Positions 1-61,626 of a stretch of DNA of 64,000 bases are shown here, piece after piece. The stretch covers positions 186,001 to 250,000 of the forward strand of contig NZ_VNWP01000003.1 in the NCBI RefSeq assembly GCF_014224355.1, read 5' to 3'. The notes under the pieces are model-generated. The model saw nothing but the letters and a program-made list of their open reading frames with translations, was not told the origin of the DNA and did no database searches. The stretch is from Synechococcus sp. BSA11S (GTDB taxonomy: Bacteria; Cyanobacteriota; Cyanobacteriia; PCC-6307; Cyanobiaceae). Position 1 is the stretch's first letter. Each line of letters starts with the position of its first letter. A program made the position numbers and the translations under genes.

Positions 1-1479
1 ATCCAGGGTGGCGAGGTAGCGCCCGAAGCTGCGTTCCACCAGCTGCTGGGCCTTGGTGAGGTCGTAGCGCTGCAGCAGGTTCAGCACCATCCCGTAGCTG
101 GGAGTGAACTGGCTCACCAGTGGGTCGGCGGGGCTGGTGGCCAGCGCACCGGCCTCACGCACCCCCTCGAAGCGGCTCTGCACCGTGACGACATAGCCCT
201 GCACATCAAGCCCCCTACGGCCGGCCCGGCCTGCCATCTGCAGGAACTCGCTGCCCATCAGCGGACGATGGCCCCGCTCGGTGCGCTTGGAGAGCGCCGA
301 GATCACCGTGGTGCGGGCCGGCATGTTGATGCCCGCCGCCAGGGTTTCGGTGGCGAAGACCACCTTGATCAGCCCCTGCTGGAACAGCTCCTCGATCAGT
401 TCCTTCCAGGCCGGCAGGACACCGGCATGGTGGGCGGCGATGCCGCGGGTGAGGGCCTCGGCGTGGCCGCCATCGCGCACCGCTTCGGGGGTGGCGGCCA
501 CGAAGGCATCAAGCCGCGCCACGATCCTGGCCTGCTCCTGCTCGCTCACCAGGCAGACCCGGCCCAGGTCACGCACCGCCTTGTCACAGCCGCGGCGGCT
601 GAAGATGAAATAGATGGCGGGTAGCATGTCGCGCTCGGCCATCTGGGCCACCACGAAGGGGAGCGGAGCCGCCTCAGGCTGAGGGGGCCTGGGGCTCCGG
701 CCCTTGCGACGTTCGCCCTTGGGGGCCCGCCACACCTTGCAGTTGGGGTGGAGGCCGGTGCCCTGCTCGTTGAGGAGGGGATGCAGGCCCTTGGCGCTGC
801 AGAAACTGAAGGCCAGCGGCACCGGCCGGTGATCGCTGATCACCAGCGTGGTGGGCCCGTGCACCCGCTCGATCCAGTCGGTGAGCTGGCCGGCGTTGGC
901 CACCGTGGCCGAGAGGGCCACCAGCTGCACGGGAGGCGGGCAGTGGATGATCGATTCCTCCCAGACGGTGCCCCGCTGGGAGTCATTCATGTAGTGGCAT
1001 TCATCGAGCACCACCGCCTCCACATCGGCAAGCGGATCGTCGCCGCGATCCACCTCCGCGTAGAGCATGTTGCGGAAGATCTCGGTGGTCATCACCACGA
1101 TCGGGGCGTCCCGATTCGTGCTCAGATCGCCGGTCATCAGGCCCACGCGATCGGCGCCGAACTGCTCACGGAAATCGCGCAGTTTCTGGTTGGAGAGAGC
1201 CTTGAGCGGAGTGGTGTAGAACACCTTCTGGCCGTGGGCGAGGGCCCGGTGGATGGCGTATTCGCCCACCAGCGTTTTGCCGGAGCCGGTGGGAGCACTC
1301 ACCACCACCGAATGGCCCTGGTTGAGAGCATCAATCGCCTCCAGCTGGAAGGGATCGAGGGGAAAGGGAAAAAGCTGATCCAGGGCCGGAACATCGACCG
1401 GAACCATGGCCCCAAACGCGGCTGGACGCCCCCGAGCCGCCGCCGGATCAGGTGGAGCGTCGGAACCGGCGGTTTGCAT
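1..1479 (-). CDS. Ski2-like DExH-box RNA helicase, 3' end cut by window edge
   Basis: 493 codons are visible from an ATG at 1479 and the gene continues off the left edge. Walker A APTGSGKT lies at about residues 62-69 and motif II is DECH at 159-162. A QMAGRAGRRG motif VI and the ATETLAAGINMPART stretch mark the second RecA domain, a pattern typical of the Ski2/Mtr4 superfamily-2 branch. These proteins unwind structured RNA during turnover or processing; the exact cyanobacterial role cannot be read here. A later in-frame ATG at 1407 is an alternative start. The gene is divergent from bioF. Confidence 0.9.
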   Translation of the reverse strand, partial: MQTAGSDAPPDPAAARGRPAAFGAMVPVDVPALDQLFPFPLDPFQLEAIDALNQGHSVVVSAPTGSGKTLVGEYAIHRALAHGQKVFYTTPLKALSNQKLRDFREQFGADRVGLMTGDLSTNRDAPIVVMTTEIFRNMLYAEVDRGDDPLADVEAVVLDECHYMNDSQRGTVWEESIIHCPPPVQLVALSATVANAGQLTDWIERVHGPTTLVISDHRPVPLAFSFCSAKGLHPLLNEQGTGLHPNCKVWRAPKGERRKGRSPRPPQPEAAPLPFVVAQMAERDMLPAIYFIFSRRGCDKAVRDLGRVCLVSEQEQARIVARLDAFVAATPEAVRDGGHAEALTRGIAAHHAGVLPAWKELIEELFQQGLIKVVFATETLAAGINMPARTTVISALSKRTERGHRPLMGSEFLQMAGRAGRRGLDVQGYVVTVQSRFEGVREAGALATSPADPLVSQFTPSYGMVLNLLQRYDLTKAQQLVERSFGRYLATLD

Positions 1480-1547
1480 CCTCCAATCCTATGGGCTGCT
1501 CAGCAAGCAGAGTGGAGGTCTGCAACTGCCCCGGCGGTGCCGCCCGC

Positions 1548-2738
1548 GTGCCCCCTGATCCGCTCGATACGATCAAGCAGGCTCTGAGCCGGCTCCCCGC
1601 CGAGCGGAGACGCTCTCTGCGCACGTTTCGTCCCGGTCCCGAGGCCACCCTGTTGCCTGGCCAGGCTGGCCGACCAGTGGGCCCCCTGCTTGATCTGGCC
1701 AGCAACGACTATCTGGGGCTCAGCGCCCACCCCAGCCTGAAGACGGCGGCGATGGCCGCGATCAACGGCGAAGGGGTGGGCTGCGGGGGATCAAGGCTCG
1801 TGAGCGGCACGCGTCCTTGCCACGACTCCCTCGAGGCGGCCCTGGCCCACTGGCTGGGGCGTGAGCGGGTGCTGCTCTTCCCCAGCGGCTTTCAGGCCAA
1901 TCTGGCCGCGGTGCTGGCCCTGGCCGATCGCCGCAGCGACGTGATCGCCGACCGCCTGATCCACCACTCCCTGCTGGTGGGGATCCAGGCCAGCGGCGCC
2001 CGCCTGCGCCGGTTTCGGCACAACGATCTGTCCGACCTGCGGCGCCTGCTGGCGCGGGGAGCCCGCAGCGAGCCGGACCGGCGGCGGCTGGTGGTGAGCG
2101 AAAGCCTGTTCAGCATGGAAGGCACCAGTCCGGATCTGGCCGGGATCGCCGCGATCTGCCAGGAGTTCGGGGCCCTGCTGCTGGTGGATGAAGCCCACGC
2201 CCTGGGGCTGCTGGGCCCGGGGGGACGCGGGCTGGCCTGGGGCTTGACCGGGGTGAGTCTGGTGAGCGGCACCTTTGGCAAGGCTTTCGGGGCCGGTGGC
2301 GCCTTCCTCGCCGCCGATGGCCCCGTGGGCGACTGGTTGCTGCAAAGCTCGGGCGCCTTCCGCTACACCACGGCCCTGGCGCCGCCACTGGCCGCCGCGG
2401 CCCTGGCGGCACTGAGGCTGCTTGAGGCCGATCCAGGCCAGGGCGCCGCCCTGCACCGGCGCGCGCAGCGCTGGCGGGATGGCCTCGAGGCCGCCGGCTG
2501 GCGGCGCCCGCCCGGCGAGGGTCCGGTGCTGCCGCTGCACGTGGGCGACGACGCACTGGCCCTGAGCCTGCAAGGCAGCCTGGAGCAGGCAGGGCTGCTG
2601 GGAGTGGCGATCCGCCCACCCACGGTGCCGGAGGGAACCGCGCGCCTGCGGCTGGTGCTGCGCCGCGACCTCCCTAGAGGAAGCCTGGATCGCCTGCTCA
2701 ACGCTCTGGCCGCCTGGCCCCACGCCCCCTCCCCATGA
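1548..2738 (+). CDS. bioF: 8-amino-7-oxononanoate synthase (BioF)
   Basis: PLP-dependent alpha-oxoamine synthase that condenses pimeloyl-ACP with alanine, the first ring-forming step of biotin synthesis. The LDLASNDYLGL start of the fold, DEAHALGLLG and the cofactor lysine in SGTFGKAFG (about K245) are all visible. I chose GTG 1548 (396 aa) because it leaves only a few residues before the first helix, as in the family. ATG 1491 would add 19 residues of poor character. The stop overlaps the next gene by 4 bp (ATGA), so this is the head of a translationally coupled biotin operon. Confidence 0.93.
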   Translation: MPPDPLDTIKQALSRLPAERRRSLRTFRPGPEATLLPGQAGRPVGPLLDLASNDYLGLSAHPSLKTAAMAAINGEGVGCGGSRLVSGTRPCHDSLEAALAHWLGRERVLLFPSGFQANLAAVLALADRRSDVIADRLIHHSLLVGIQASGARLRRFRHNDLSDLRRLLARGARSEPDRRRLVVSESLFSMEGTSPDLAGIAAICQEFGALLLVDEAHALGLLGPGGRGLAWGLTGVSLVSGTFGKAFGAGGAFLAADGPVGDWLLQSSGAFRYTTALAPPLAAAALAALRLLEADPGQGAALHRRAQRWRDGLEAAGWRRPPGEGPVLPLHVGDDALALSLQGSLEQAGLLGVAIRPPTVPEGTARLRLVLRRDLPRGSLDRLLNALAAWPHAPSP

Positions 2739-3433
2739 GCCGCCCTTGCTTCGAGCTGATCGCCATGCACGGCTGGGCCGGCGACAGCCGGGCCTGGCGC
2801 CCCTGGCAGCAGGCGGCGACCAGCCGGGGCTGGAGCTGGCAGAGCGGCGAGCGCGGCTACGGCCAGCTGGCGCCCCACACTCCCCGCTGGTTGGAGCTGG
2901 GCGGCCCCAGGGCGGTGATCGTGCATTCCCTCGGGTTGCATCTGCTGCCGGCCCCGGTGCTGGCCGAGGCGGAGGCGGTGGTGTTGCTCGCCAGCTTCGG
3001 ACGCTTCATCCCCACCGGACCCGAGGGGCGGCGCTGGCGGCAGGCCCTGCGCGGCATGGACCGGCGCCTGGGGGCCGGCGACACCACCGCCCTGCTCGAG
3101 GAGTTTCTGCGGGAGGCTGCCGCTCCCGCGCCGGTGGAGCTGCTGCCGGAAGGACCCTCGTCGCGGGAGATGCCTGCCGAGGGGGTGGAGAGGCTGCGCC
3201 AGGATCTGCTCTTGCTGGAGCAATGCACCGCCGTGCCCTCCGCCTTCCCTGCCGGAGCCCGCACCCTGATCGTGGAGGCCGAGGCCGATCGGATCGTGGC
3301 GCCCGAGAGCCGCACGGCCCTGCACCGGGCGCTGCCGGCCGCCGAGCGCTGGGCCCTGCCGGGCATCGGCCACAGCCTGCTGGGCAGCGATCTGGTGGAG
3401 CCCGTCCTGACCTGGCTGGAGGACGCCCACTGA
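2735..3433 (+). CDS. bioK: BioH-type alpha/beta hydrolase (BioK-like pimeloyl-ACP methyl ester esterase)
   Basis: A 232-aa alpha/beta hydrolase. The probable nucleophile is S65 in VHSLG (the first Gly of the usual GxSxG is replaced), with acid D185 in EADRIVAP and base H213 in GIGHSLLG. Position between bioF and bioC implies it removes the methyl ester from pimeloyl-ACP, the job of BioH in E. coli. BioK is the name used for the picocyanobacterial enzyme at this locus, and I assign it from context rather than alignment. It overlaps bioF by 4 bp and shares one base with bioC (TGATG). Confidence 0.75.
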   Translation: MSRPCFELIAMHGWAGDSRAWRPWQQAATSRGWSWQSGERGYGQLAPHTPRWLELGGPRAVIVHSLGLHLLPAPVLAEAEAVVLLASFGRFIPTGPEGRRWRQALRGMDRRLGAGDTTALLEEFLREAAAPAPVELLPEGPSSREMPAEGVERLRQDLLLLEQCTAVPSAFPAGARTLIVEAEADRIVAPESRTALHRALPAAERWALPGIGHSLLGSDLVEPVLTWLEDAH

Positions 3434-4221
3434 TGGTTGTGCTCCAGTCCCCCCCCTCGATGGCCCAGCGGGTGCGGGTGGCCTTCAGCCGCAGAGCCCG
3501 TCACTACGACGCCGCGGCCAGCCTGCAAAAGGCCGTGGCCTGGCGGCTGGCCCGCCACTGCCGCGACCTGACCCTGCCATCCGGCCCCAGGGCCGATCTG
3601 GGGGCTGGAACCGGCCTGCTCAGCAGCGCCCTGGAGCAGCAACGCCCCGGGAGCACCCTGCTGCGGCTCGATGCCTGCGCGGCCCTGCTGGAGCAGGGCG
3701 AGGCCCCTGGAGCCAGGCTCCTCTGGGACCTCAACGACGGCCTGCCTGAAAGCCTGGGCGGAGCGGCCCTGCTGGTGTCGAGTTTCGCGCTGCACTGGCT
3801 GGAGAATCCCGCAGTCAGCCTGCGCCAGTGGTGCGACGCCCTGGGGCCGGGCGGCTGGCTGGCTCTGGCGGTCCCCACCGCTGGCAGCTTCCCCCAGTGG
3901 CGCCAGGCGGCCGCCGCCGCAGGCGTGCCCTGCACCGCCCTCGTCCTGCCCGAGGTGCGGCAGCTGCTGGCTGTGGTGGCGCCACGGCTGGACCTGCGAC
4001 TGGGAGCACCGCTGCGCTTCAGCCAGAACGGCCCCAGCGGCCGGGCCCTGCTGCAGCGCATGCGGGCTGTGGGGGCCGGCACCACCGCAACCCCACCCCT
4101 GGGGGTCGGGGCCTGGCGGCGGATTGAGGCCCACTGGGCCGGGGGGCCGGGCGGCAAGCGCCTGAGCTGGGAGGTGCTGATGCTGCTCGGCCGAAAACCT
4201 CAGGGCAGGGCAGAGCGATGA
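3433..4221 (+). CDS. bioC: Malonyl-ACP O-methyltransferase (BioC)
   Basis: 262-aa class I SAM-dependent methyltransferase. Motif I is DLGAGTG at residues 55-61, followed by an acidic SAM-ribose position (RLDAC) and the SSFALHWL stretch typical of BioC. It methylates malonyl-ACP so that the fatty acid machinery can build the pimeloyl chain; the adjacent esterase later removes the methyl group. I start it at ATG 3433, which overlaps the preceding TGA by one base. The frame is open upstream through the hydrolase gene, but those codons have no homology. It overlaps bioD by 4 bp. Confidence 0.88.
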   Translation: MVVLQSPPSMAQRVRVAFSRRARHYDAAASLQKAVAWRLARHCRDLTLPSGPRADLGAGTGLLSSALEQQRPGSTLLRLDACAALLEQGEAPGARLLWDLNDGLPESLGGAALLVSSFALHWLENPAVSLRQWCDALGPGGWLALAVPTAGSFPQWRQAAAAAGVPCTALVLPEVRQLLAVVAPRLDLRLGAPLRFSQNGPSGRALLQRMRAVGAGTTATPPLGVGAWRRIEAHWAGGPGGKRLSWEVLMLLGRKPQGRAER

Positions 4222-4856
4222 CCCGTCTGGTGGTCTGCGGCACCGACACCGATGTGGGCAAGACCGTGGTGAGTGCCCTGCTGGTGCAGGGGCTGAACGC
4301 CCACTACTGGAAGCCGGTGCAGTGTGGCCTCGAGGAGGGGGGCGACAGCGCCAGGGTCCAGGCCATGCTCGGGCTCACGCCCGCTGAAGCCACCCGTCGC
4401 CTCCTGCCGGAGGCCTACCGCTACACCCATCCGGTCTCCCCCCACTGGGCGGGTGAACTGGAGCAGCGGCCGATCGACCCAGAGCTTCTGAGTCTGCCCC
4501 AGGTCAGCGGACCCCTGGTGGTGGAGACCGCCGGCGGACTGCTGGTGCCCCTGCGCCTCGACTGTCTCCAGATCGGTCAGATCCAGCGCTGGGGCTTGCC
4601 GGTGCTGCTGGTGGCCCGCAGTGGCCTGGGCACGCTCAACCACACCCTGCTCTCGGTGGAAGCCCTGCGCCGCCGCCGGATCCCCCTGCTGGGGCTGATT
4701 CTCAACGGCCCCCCCCACCCCGACAACCCCCGCACCCTCGAGACCCTGAGCGGGGCGCCGGTGCTGGCCTGCCTGCCCCCCCTTCCCCGCCTTGAGCCCG
4801 GCACCCTGGCCGCTCAATGGCAGGCGAGCGGACTGGCCCGTAGCCTGGCCGGATGA
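4218..4856 (+). CDS. bioD: Dethiobiotin synthetase (BioD)
   Basis: 212-aa P-loop ligase that closes the ureido ring of dethiobiotin from DAPA, CO2 and ATP. The diagnostic N-terminal P-loop GTDTDVGKT is at residues 8-16. KPVQCG follows at about residue 35, and ETAGGLLVPL matches the family Glu/Ala/Gly-Gly segment. Length fits the usual 210-230 aa. The start codon overlaps the bioC stop (ATGA), and its own stop overlaps the start of a 51-aa microprotein gene in the same way. Confidence 0.93.
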   Translation: MTRLVVCGTDTDVGKTVVSALLVQGLNAHYWKPVQCGLEEGGDSARVQAMLGLTPAEATRRLLPEAYRYTHPVSPHWAGELEQRPIDPELLSLPQVSGPLVVETAGGLLVPLRLDCLQIGQIQRWGLPVLLVARSGLGTLNHTLLSVEALRRRRIPLLGLILNGPPHPDNPRTLETLSGAPVLACLPPLPRLEPGTLAAQWQASGLARSLAG

Positions 4857-5008
4857 CACGAGGCAATCTGCTGATCAGCGCGTCTGTCGCCCTGCTCTGC
4901 GCCGGCATCCTGGTGCTGTTCACCGACGTGGAAATCGGGATGGTGCGCTGGTTCAACTGCGGGCCCTGGGCCACCGAAACGACCCGCCAGGAGAAGTGGT
5001 GCCGCTGA
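4853..5008 (+). CDS. 51-aa single-pass membrane microprotein inside the biotin operon
   Basis: ATG 4853 overlaps the bioD stop by 4 bp and TGA ends at 5008, giving 51 codons. Residues about 6-22 form one hydrophobic helix (LLISASVALLCAGILVLF). A charged, Trp-rich tail with two cysteines (FNCGPWATET, KWCR) follows. Codon use is GC-rich at third positions like its neighbours, and both ends are coupled to neighbouring reading frames, so I regard it as real. Function is unknown; location suggests a link to biotin or simply a conserved passenger. Confidence 0.65.
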   Translation: MTRGNLLISASVALLCAGILVLFTDVEIGMVRWFNCGPWATETTRQEKWCR

Positions 5009-5027
5009 TGCACCCGGAGGCCATTCC

Positions 5028-6344
5028 TTGAACTGGCATCCCCATCTCTGGCATCCCACCACCCAGGTGGCCGGGGCCGATCCACCCCTGAGGGCAGTGG
5101 CCGGCCGCGGCGCCCTGCTCATGCTCGACGACGGCCGGGAGCTGATCGACGCCATCAGCAGTTGGTGGGTGACCCTGCATGGCCATGGGGAGCCCAGCAT
5201 CGCCGCGGCTGTAGCCGAGCAGGCCCAGCGTCTGGAACAGGTGATCTTCGCCAACTTCAGCCATCCCCCAGGGGAGCGTCTGGCCGAGCGGCTCAGTGCC
5301 ATTTCAGGGCTGGAGCGGCTGTTCTTCTCCGACGACGGCTCCACAGCCGTGGAGGTGGCCCTCAAGATCGCCTGGCAGTGGTGGCGCAACCAGGGCTCCG
5401 ATCGGCGGCAGCTGATCGCCTTTGAGGGCGCCTATCACGGCGACACCTTCGGGGCCATGGCCCTGGGGGAGCGCTCACTGTTCTCGGCCCCCTTCGAGCC
5501 GCTGCTCTCCCCGGTGGCGCGGGCCCCCTGGCCCGCCACCTGGTGGGACGATCCCGAGGTGGAAGACAAGGAGGAGGGCGCCCTCGCCCGGCTGGAGCAG
5601 CTGCTGGCGGTGCCCACCGCGGCGGTGATCCTCGAACCCCTGGTGCAGGGGGCCAGTGGCATGGCGATGGTGCGGGAGGGTTTCCTGCGCCGGGCAGAGG
5701 AGCTGGTGCGCCAGGCCGGCGCCCTGCTGATCGCCGATGAGGTGATGACCGGCTTCGGGCGCACAGGTGACCTGTTCGCCTGCCGACGGGCAGGCATCCG
5801 CCCTGATCTGATGGCCCTCTCCAAGGGGCTCACCGGGGGCTTCCTGCCGATGGGAGTCACCCTGGCGAGCGAGCGGATCTACCAGGGCTTCATCAGCGAC
5901 GATCCCAGCCACACCCTGTACCACGGCCACAGTTTCACGGCCAATCCACTCGGCTGCGCCGCCGCCAACGCCAGCCTGGACCTGCTCCTGCGGCAGCCGG
6001 CTCTCCACGCAGGCTTCGAAGCCCGCCACAGGCCCCATCTCCAGGCCCTCCGCGCCCATCCCCTGGTGCGACGGCCGCGGTTGTGCGGCACCATCGCCGC
6101 CTTCGACCTGGCCGTGGAACAGCCGGGCTATCTCCACCCCGCCGGCCGCCGGCTGCAGCGTCATGCCCTCGAAGCCGGGGTGTTCCTGCGGCCCCTGGGT
6201 CACGTGGTTTATCTCCTGCCGCCGCTCTGCCTCAGCGACAGCCAGCTGGAGCACTGCTACGCCGTGATCCGCTCAGGGCTCGATCAGCTCGCTCAGGGGC
6301 CCGCCAGGATCGCCGATTCCACGTCGGCGCGGCTGAGTCCGTAG
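5028..6344 (+). CDS. bioA: Adenosylmethionine-8-amino-7-oxononanoate aminotransferase (BioA)
   Basis: 438-aa class III PLP aminotransferase that converts KAPA to DAPA using SAM as amino donor. Features are the N-terminal HPHLWHPTTQ, SSWWVTLHGHGEP, FFSDDGSTAVEVALK, IADEVMTGFGRTG and the cofactor lysine in LSKGLTGG (about K266). The start is TTG 5028, preceded by a GGAGG Shine-Dalgarno at 5016-5020 with 7-nt spacing; no in-frame ATG lies nearby. The 3' end overlaps the convergent DUF3143 gene by 52 bp. Confidence 0.92.
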   Translation: MNWHPHLWHPTTQVAGADPPLRAVAGRGALLMLDDGRELIDAISSWWVTLHGHGEPSIAAAVAEQAQRLEQVIFANFSHPPGERLAERLSAISGLERLFFSDDGSTAVEVALKIAWQWWRNQGSDRRQLIAFEGAYHGDTFGAMALGERSLFSAPFEPLLSPVARAPWPATWWDDPEVEDKEEGALARLEQLLAVPTAAVILEPLVQGASGMAMVREGFLRRAEELVRQAGALLIADEVMTGFGRTGDLFACRRAGIRPDLMALSKGLTGGFLPMGVTLASERIYQGFISDDPSHTLYHGHSFTANPLGCAAANASLDLLLRQPALHAGFEARHRPHLQALRAHPLVRRPRLCGTIAAFDLAVEQPGYLHPAGRRLQRHALEAGVFLRPLGHVVYLLPPLCLSDSQLEHCYAVIRSGLDQLAQGPARIADSTSARLSP

Positions 6345-60508: not shown

Positions 60509-60599
60509 TGCTTACCGCTTGGTGCCCGGTCTGGAAGATCCGGTGCCATCTGGCTGGCCTCATCCGGTGGCTACTCCCAGCGTCAATTGTTGTGATCGC

Positions 60600-60626
60600 C
60601 TACTCCTTCAGAGAAGCCTGCGGCTA
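60600..60626 (-). repeat. 27-bp dispersed repeat, copy R3
   Basis: Minus strand reads TAGCCGCAGGCTTC then TCTGAAGGAGTAG, with a CTTC-TCT-GAAG mini-hairpin. It replaces transposase sequence right after the YAQR codons, where homology of the IS1182-like remnant ends. It matches copy R2 at 19 of 27 positions. Confidence 0.55.
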
Positions 60627-61044
60627 GCGCTGGGCGTAGATCCCTGTTCCCTTCTTGCTTCTGAGCTTGCGGGCCATGCGGGTTCTGGCATCGGCACCCC
60701 TGGGCAACGGTCAACGCATCGGTGGAGGGGGATGGCCGTGCGGCACGCTGCCGGTGGCGATGCAGGCATCAATGCCCTGATCAGCGCAGCAGTTGGCGTT
60801 GTCCTCGCTCCAGTAGGCCGCATCCAGGGCTACGGCTCCAGATGCTCCACATCCGGAGGCTGATTGCTCACCCCCATGGCCACGATCACCTGGTGGTCGC
60901 TGTCGACAGCCAGCTGGCAGTTGTAGCCGTGGATGTAGTGGCCATCTGACTTCATGAGATGGCTTTCGGGGTCCGTGAAGTTCCTCTGGCTCTTGCCTGT
61001 CGGGCTGCCATCGGCCTTTCTCGCCATGCCCCGCCTGGGCCTCG

Positions 61045-61071
61045 CAACCGCTGCGCGGAAGCCTCCGGCTA
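61045..61071 (-). repeat. 27-bp dispersed repeat, copy R2
   Basis: Minus strand reads TAGCCGGAGGCTTC then CGCGCAGCGGTTG. It matches R1 at 23 of 27 positions. It lies at the junction where the transposase changes from the IEAA-rich linker to the PRRGMARKADG segment in another frame. Confidence 0.65.
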
Positions 61072-61387
61072 CAGCCGCCAGCGGCCTCGATCGCCTTCTC
61101 CCTCGCTGCTTTGGCCTTGGCCGCTGCCGTCTCTGCTTTCCCGTTCGGCTCGGCCTGCTCAGCTGCCGGCGCCTCAGTTCATCCGGCAGGTCACTGCCAC
61201 GGTTGCCCTTGCCATAGCGCCGATCCTCCTGGGCATCGAGGTGGCGGCGGCGGAATTCACTGATGCGGCTGTGGTCAGGCTGCTGGTTGCCGGTGAGCAC
61301 CCGGAAGGCCAGATCCTCGTCACAGGCCCGCTCGATCCTGCGGGAGGAGACGATGCCTACGCAGTAGGCGTAGAGCAGCAACAGCAT

Positions 61388-61414
61388 CAACCGCTTCGCG
61401 GAAGACTTCGTCTA
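61388..61414 (-). repeat. 27-bp dispersed repeat, copy R1
   Basis: Minus strand reads TAGACGAAGTCTTC then CGCGAAGCGGTTG with a CTTC-CGC-GAAG mini-hairpin. It sits exactly between GFDPRM and MLLLLYAYC, which are contiguous in IS1182 transposases. Length 27 keeps frame, but its first triplet is a stop codon. Confidence 0.7.
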
Positions 61415-61626
61415 CATCCTGGGGTCAAACCCTTTCTCCCCACGGGGATCCTTGGCCTGAGCGGGGATCAGGATCGCGGAGAGATCCAATTCGTTGATCA
61501 GATCGAGCAGGACATACACCTGGTGATCGTCCGAGAGCCAGTCACTCGGTGATGGCGGCAGCAGGGTCGTCTGCTCCGGCGGCCAGGGACGGGAGGACTT
61601 GGGCTTCTGCATGCCCCATTCTCTTA

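Follow-up and report, generated by a model that had tools for sequence, protein, structure and literature searches.

Cyanobacterial genomes pose an old puzzle: they contain very small mobile repeats for which no enzyme is known. Those of Nostoc punctiforme and its relatives, the SDR repeats, are said to have been described by Elhai et al. in 2008 as dispersed sequences, 21-27 nt long, precisely inserted, whose predicted secondary structure is kept by compensatory changes; they reportedly also occur in heptamer arrays and in short palindromes. For one of them, SDR5, a published report (PMC4390886) places the insertion between nucleotides 3 and 4 of HIP1, GCG^ATCGC, where '^' indicates, here and below, the point of insertion.

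The three units reported here, R1, R2 and R3, appear to have their closest known kind in these repeats (SDR4, SDR5, SDR6), the likeness being drawn from their description and not from a consensus sequence. They were found in Synechococcus sp. BSA11S, whose genome measures 2.88 Mb, within a stretch of 64,000 nucleotides (66.8% GC), which was analyzed as a whole and is referred to as the window. R1, R2 and R3 are very probably members of a family of precise, mobile, twin-hairpin insertions, each producing a gain of 24 bp. Units of this family have spread at many sites in many species of freshwater picocyanobacteria, and repeatedly at one site of a transposase gene.

The three units and the transposase remnant

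The units sit in a decayed transposase gene, located between 60.6 and 61.6 kb of the window (contig C23); coordinates are reported in Table 1. The middle part of the gene matches the DUF772 profile (E 5e-12), and "IS1182-type" is used for this transposase as a putative label.

The original prediction described three related units of 27 bp. Their coordinates and similarity are confirmed, with 23 of 27 identical bases between R1 and R2, 19 between R2 and R3, and 18 between R1 and R3. The length needs correction: the net gain is exactly 24 bp, and each 27-mer includes, at its end, two bases that belong to the target (61388-61389 in the case of R1). Each unit had also been related to a break in the gene. 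This holds for R1, which splits a conserved transposase stretch (PRM^M..LLLYAY) and puts an in-frame TAG there. R2, supposed to mark a frame change, simply adds 24 bp, which are read through in an open frame, while R3, taken as the end of homology, is followed by 8 more homologous bases and only then by a separate deletion of 140 bp, which lies between two AGGCGATC direct repeats of the IS.

Table 1. Features of the transposase remnant and of the three units. Positions are those of the window; sequences are given in the direction of the strand indicated.
Feature	Position	Strand	Sequence	Description
R1 27-mer	61388-61414	minus	TAGACGAAGTCTTCCGCGAAGCGGTTG	
R2 27-mer	61045-61071	minus	TAGCCGGAGGCTTCCGCGCAGCGGTTG	
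R3 27-mer	60600-60626	minus	TAGCCGCAGGCTTCTCTGAAGGAGTAG	
R1 twin-hairpin 25-mer	61390-61414	minus	TAGACGAAGTCTTCCGCGAAGCGGT	replaces one A of CGGATG^ATG; net +24 bp
R2 twin-hairpin unit	61047-61071	minus	TAGCCGGAGGCTTCCGCGCAGCGGT	replaces A of GGCTG^ACG; net +24 bp
R3 twin-hairpin unit	60602-60626	minus	TAGCCGCAGGCTTCTCTGAAGGAGT	replaces A of CGC^AAG; net +24 bp
Transposase remnant, N-terminal part	61412-61612	minus		ends at the R1 stop codon
Transposase remnant, middle part (DUF772, PF05598)	60830-61390	minus		open across R2
Junction beside R3	60592-60601	minus	AGGCGATC	140-bp IS stretch lost between two direct repeats

Two other copies of the IS, on contigs C39 and C2 of the source genome (loci L074 and L075), both carry the sequence CGCCTRCCTGGCCGCAGGCCAGCGTGCCGGAGGCACTAGATCGAG inside the transposase gene, about 33 bp longer than the window copy. 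This sequence is perhaps another small insert.

Secondary structure of the units

On one strand, the units read T-hairpin-T-hairpin-T, where each hairpin is formed by a 4-bp stem and by a GNA loop (N being A, C, G or T); in R3 the second stem is the CTCT/GGAG variant. These two hairpins with GNA loops are the conserved structure of the family. A different mini-stem, CTTC/GAAG, on which attention had initially been focused, is not conserved: it is broken whenever loop 2 is GCA, GGA or GTA. Further copies are present in the source genome outside the transposase gene, namely TAGCCGCAGGCTTCCGCGCAGCGGTAG on contig C33, TAGGCGAAGCCTTCCGCGAAGCGGTGG on C13 and TAGCGGAACGCTTCCGCGAAGCGGTTG on both C34 and C40. 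Paired changes are found among copies in the first half of the unit (AGAC..GTCT, AGGC..GCCT, AGCC..GGCT, AGCG..CGCT) and, among copies and relatives, in the second half (CCGC..GCGG, CTGC..GCAG, CTCC..GGAG).

The ability of the units to pair was evaluated in several ways. GTDB species were scanned with a pattern leaving two stem pairs free: among the matches listed, the free pairs are complementary in 81 and 82 of 84 cases, respectively (about 97%). A scan based on structure only yielded 144 distinct matches, vs 0 in the reversed sequence; the loci used had been selected by patterns fixing part of the structure, and the free-pair test is the cleaner one. When structure and motif were combined, at a score of at least 15, 186 distinct units were found, vs 0 in the same sequence reversed, over about 1.1 Mb of loci, mostly picked for carrying units, plus the window. 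Across 58 distinct variants, 98.9% of the cells are paired, compared with 61% or less in slid controls, and 57 double-sided changes are present, vs 17 in shuffles. G.T pairs are found in the stems at a low level.

Folded as single-stranded DNA, all six units tested are predicted to form the twin hairpin, with the second stem of R3 reduced to 3 bp; when folded as RNA, four of the six do so, while the other two favour another fold. DNA mini-hairpins with GNA loops are known for their extraordinary stability and their resistance to nucleases (PMC4686876).

Empty sites and insertion rule

The flanks of each unit were compared with homologous DNA in other loci. An empty homologous site was found for 115 units: in 108 of them, filled and empty sites differ by exactly 24 bp, the inserted 25-mer, T...T, replacing one A. 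The sites showing this gain fall into 44 groups, most of which are located in genes other than the IS1182-type transposase. At the insertion point of the empty sites, A is found at +1 in 84% of the groups; Y at -2 is present in 95% of the empty-site groups and in 100% of the filled ones; S is mostly found at -1, and W-G is the commonest sequence after the A. The target is written here as Y-S^A-W-G. Exceptions are given by 13 of 88 sites, where the best empty homologues feature T, C or G in place of the A, and by the R3 site, which has G at -2.

Each of the three sites of the window copy is found empty in intact IS1182-type relatives. At the R1 site, empty copies read CGGATG^ATG, while filled ones read ATG-TAGACG..., with the in-frame stop. 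At the R2 site, GGCTG^ACG is found empty in at least two copies (C2 and L127). At the R3 site, the window has CGC-[TAG...GAGT]-AGGCGATCACAAC, whereas CGC^AAGGCGATCGTGG, or a similar sequence, is found in about 20 relatives. These empty sites, along with the copies found elsewhere in the genome and in the family, support the idea of very small mobile repeats, which had been put forward from the window alone.

Insertion does not necessarily interrupt a protein. A stop is met in only one of the six reading frames of the unit (the TAG, as read from the sequence), and, as 24 is a multiple of three, units may be read through in proteins: GGEELS, for example, becomes GGVAEGFCAAVELS in locus L222.

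The R1 site was followed in a tree of 38 IS1182-type copies, of which 10 are filled and 28 empty. Filled copies carry different variants of the unit (TAGACG.., TAGGCG.., TAGCCG..), and their grouping into a single clade is rejected (p-AU 5e-79). The best tree features 8 changes at this site, at least 4 of which are forced by well-supported branches. Several filled rows are on long branches, and losses are possible; repeated gain is, however, the simpler reading, since a loss would need to restore the A.

Distribution of the family

Further copies, on which the original prediction depended, are present elsewhere in the source genome and in about one quarter of the family genomes sampled. In the source genome, if 3 mismatches at most are allowed, 10 sequences match the 23-nt core pattern (reversed control 0), and 11 copies are found by a covariance model (E<=0.01); family genomes contain up to 18 copies each. 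The pattern is present in 50 of 201 family genomes, and the reversed pattern gives 0 matches in those listed. Synechococcus sp. WH 5701, CCY 0621, SynAce01, several Cyanobium and Vulcanococcus limneticus are among the named carriers. When the whole GTDB was scanned, all but 3 of the first 80 loci listed belong to picocyanobacteria or are given simply as cyanobacteria. The three others, from Coriobacteriaceae, Eremiobacterota and Gemmatimonadetes, are precisely those failing the free stem pair 4-10. Scans of IMG/VR for the unit pattern gave 0 matches, an Rfam search with the unit returned nothing, and a plasmid and phage BLAST search with a 33-mer returned no cyanobacterial matches.

Three Cyanobium-type contigs (L222, at positions 700-5400, L183 and L211) contain arrays of modules. 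The modules are repeated and for the most part decayed, share an HNH-like motif, EVDHIVPRNQGG, and alternate with small ORFs, which resemble PIN toxins or antitoxins, as named by eye. Many twin-hairpin units sit within these module arrays, each of which looks like a decaying cassette array.

In other cyanobacterial families, the covariance model finds only weaker matches, to relatives of 22-25 nt. Of 12 chosen genomes, 11 contain a 23-nt form, T-AGNC-GNA-GNCT-T-CCC-GNA-GGG-T, when up to 2 mismatches are allowed; the reversed control gives 0. Inspection by eye shows an AATTTTG heptamer array, broken at TTTTG^A by a 23-nt relative, in four loci (L374, L384, L391, L397), and a sequence, GGGGCAATTCATG^AATTGCCCC in L385, which becomes a perfect palindrome once the 23-mer is replaced by A. 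Judging from their sequences, the 23-nt relatives appear to keep the same structure and target rule. In two more loci (L252 and L253, genomes G310 and G492), at about 1497-1528, a 24-nt twin-hairpin insert is located within the HIP1 octamer, GCG^ATCGC; this HIP1-sited form (25 nt) is represented in other families by two copies only, one per genome. In L254, L256 and L259, also from other cyanobacterial families, positions 1501-1522 hold a 22-nt relative, TAGCTTGCTTCCGCGAAGCGGT; the stem of its first hairpin measures 3 bp and is closed by a TT loop.

Mechanism and alternative explanations

The mechanism we favour, tentatively, is a single-stranded DNA route. What moves would be one strand, in which two GNA mini-hairpins of great stability are formed. 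This strand would more likely be DNA than RNA, since GNA loops are above all a feature of DNA, both ends are brought close to each other by the double hairpin, and RNA folding fits less well. It may then be joined into a one-nucleotide gap, or a nick, at the A, either by host enzymes of repair or replication or by one yet to be found. The joining step, by which the A would be lost and T...T gained, is proposed ahead of an established mechanism, and movement itself is deduced from the comparison of filled and empty sites. Many of the copies that survive would lie where an insertion costs little, in DNA that is not essential, dying transposase genes included. The GC skew of three single-contig genomes is too weak to read a lagging-strand bias of the units. 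A bolder version of the same scheme, which seems improbable to us, makes the elements enzyme-free: a nuclease-resistant folded strand of 24-25 nt would be ligated by ordinary host enzymes into one-nucleotide Y-S^A gaps, replacing the A. In that case, the ability to spread would come from the folding of DNA itself, throughout the cyanobacterial SDR-like superfamily.

A route through RNA, in which the transcribed unit would be reverse-transcribed into target sites, is a serious rival, though of rather low probability; an RNA intermediate is said to have been proposed for SDRs by Elhai et al. The covariation of the stems could equally serve such an intermediate, given the low-level G.T pairs, and GNA loops also function in RNA. 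Units tend to share the orientation of the target reading frame, as is the case for 20 of the 28 site groups that can be scored (20:8; p ~0.04, weak). On the other hand, two of the six units prefer another RNA fold, and a reverse transcriptase (RVT_1, PF00078) is found in 10 of the 201 genomes, 5 of which are carriers, while the source genome and most carriers have none. A further reading, which is unlikely, treats the units as REP-type elements, whose mobility would be supplied in trans by a RAYT or IS200-IS605-type Y1 transposase; its substrate would be hairpin single-stranded DNA, and the conserved foot would be TAG, often GTAG. A single-stranded hairpin substrate would fit, GTAG REPs are known in cyanobacteria (PMC3733652), and TAG does stand at the start of the units; among 143 copies, the base just before it is G in 83, C in 46 and A in 14. 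Yet Y1_Tnp (PF01797) has no match in the source genome or in other carriers of the same genus, and units are present in 5 of the 20 Y1-positive genomes, i.e. at the same rate as in the 201 genomes overall, with no association. Moreover, the AG of the TAG takes part in the pairing of stem 1, in contrast with the unpaired tag of GTAG REPs, and one A is lost at the target. As the Y1 transposase and the reverse transcriptase are absent from the source genome and from most carriers, neither is needed as a resident gene for units to be present; an enzyme yet to be found, on which the units were originally supposed to hitchhike, could serve a DNA or an RNA route.

The units might also be inherited parts of the IS1182-type element, a single old insertion being spread by transposition of the IS. 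Three copies in the source genome (those of the window, C27 and C2) have R1 at the same site, and some of the filled copies group together in the tree. This reading is contradicted by the fact that filled copies do not form one clade and carry different variants at the R1 site, as well as by the occurrence of the same gain in 44 site groups, a majority of which belong to other genes, and is very improbable. As to a chance similarity of GC-rich sequences in a degraded gene, stretches with 18-19 matches out of 27 do arise by chance at the 67% GC of the window; the absence of matches in both the reversed-sequence and the reversed-pattern controls, together with the exact 24-bp empty sites, refutes this explanation, whose probability is negligible.

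Comparison with known systems

The units share several features with SDRs. Their net length of 24 bp (in 108 of 115 cases) is within the 21-27 nt range; their secondary structure features compensatory changes, the comparison with SDR structure being by description only; and their relatives from other families are found in heptamer arrays and in short palindromes, settings also reported for SDRs. The SDR5 site, GCG^ATCGC, fits the Y-S^A target of the picocyanobacterial units. The latter differ from SDRs by their presence in GC-rich unicellular picocyanobacteria, their net 24 bp with two 4-bp stems, and their targets, which are not HIP1.

Double-hairpin elements exist in the mitochondria of fungi and algae. 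They resemble the units in being very small and dispersed, with two adjacent hairpins, but belong to other genomes and have other sequences and lengths, with no evidence of common descent. Both hairpins of the unit are C-GNA-G mini-hairpins, such as those of the d(GCGAAGC) type (PMC4686876, citing Hirao 1994, Yoshizawa 1997); these, however, are synthetic oligonucleotides, while the units are genomic repeats. REPs of the GTAG type and REPINs, associated with RAYT (PMC3733652, PMC3116915), are also small and able to form hairpins, and the G often preceding the units gives a GTAG. Unlike them, the units have two hairpins instead of one, feature no unpaired tag and lose one A of the target, and no RAYT is present in the source genome.

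No report of SDR-like repeats in picocyanobacteria was found in the literature searched, whose coverage is partial. More than 100 pairs of filled and empty sites, along with a target gene that has been hit repeatedly, are available in a sequenced clade that is compact and GC-rich. Together with the insertion rule, by which 24 bp are gained and one A preceded by Y-S is lost, they make the movement of a 24-bp element directly testable. The structural rule of the GNA loops points to single-stranded DNA, and the same rule appears to extend to the shorter relatives in other cyanobacterial families. The kind of element is thus already known from the SDRs of Nostoc; what is new is a picocyanobacterial family with an unusually exact insertion rule.
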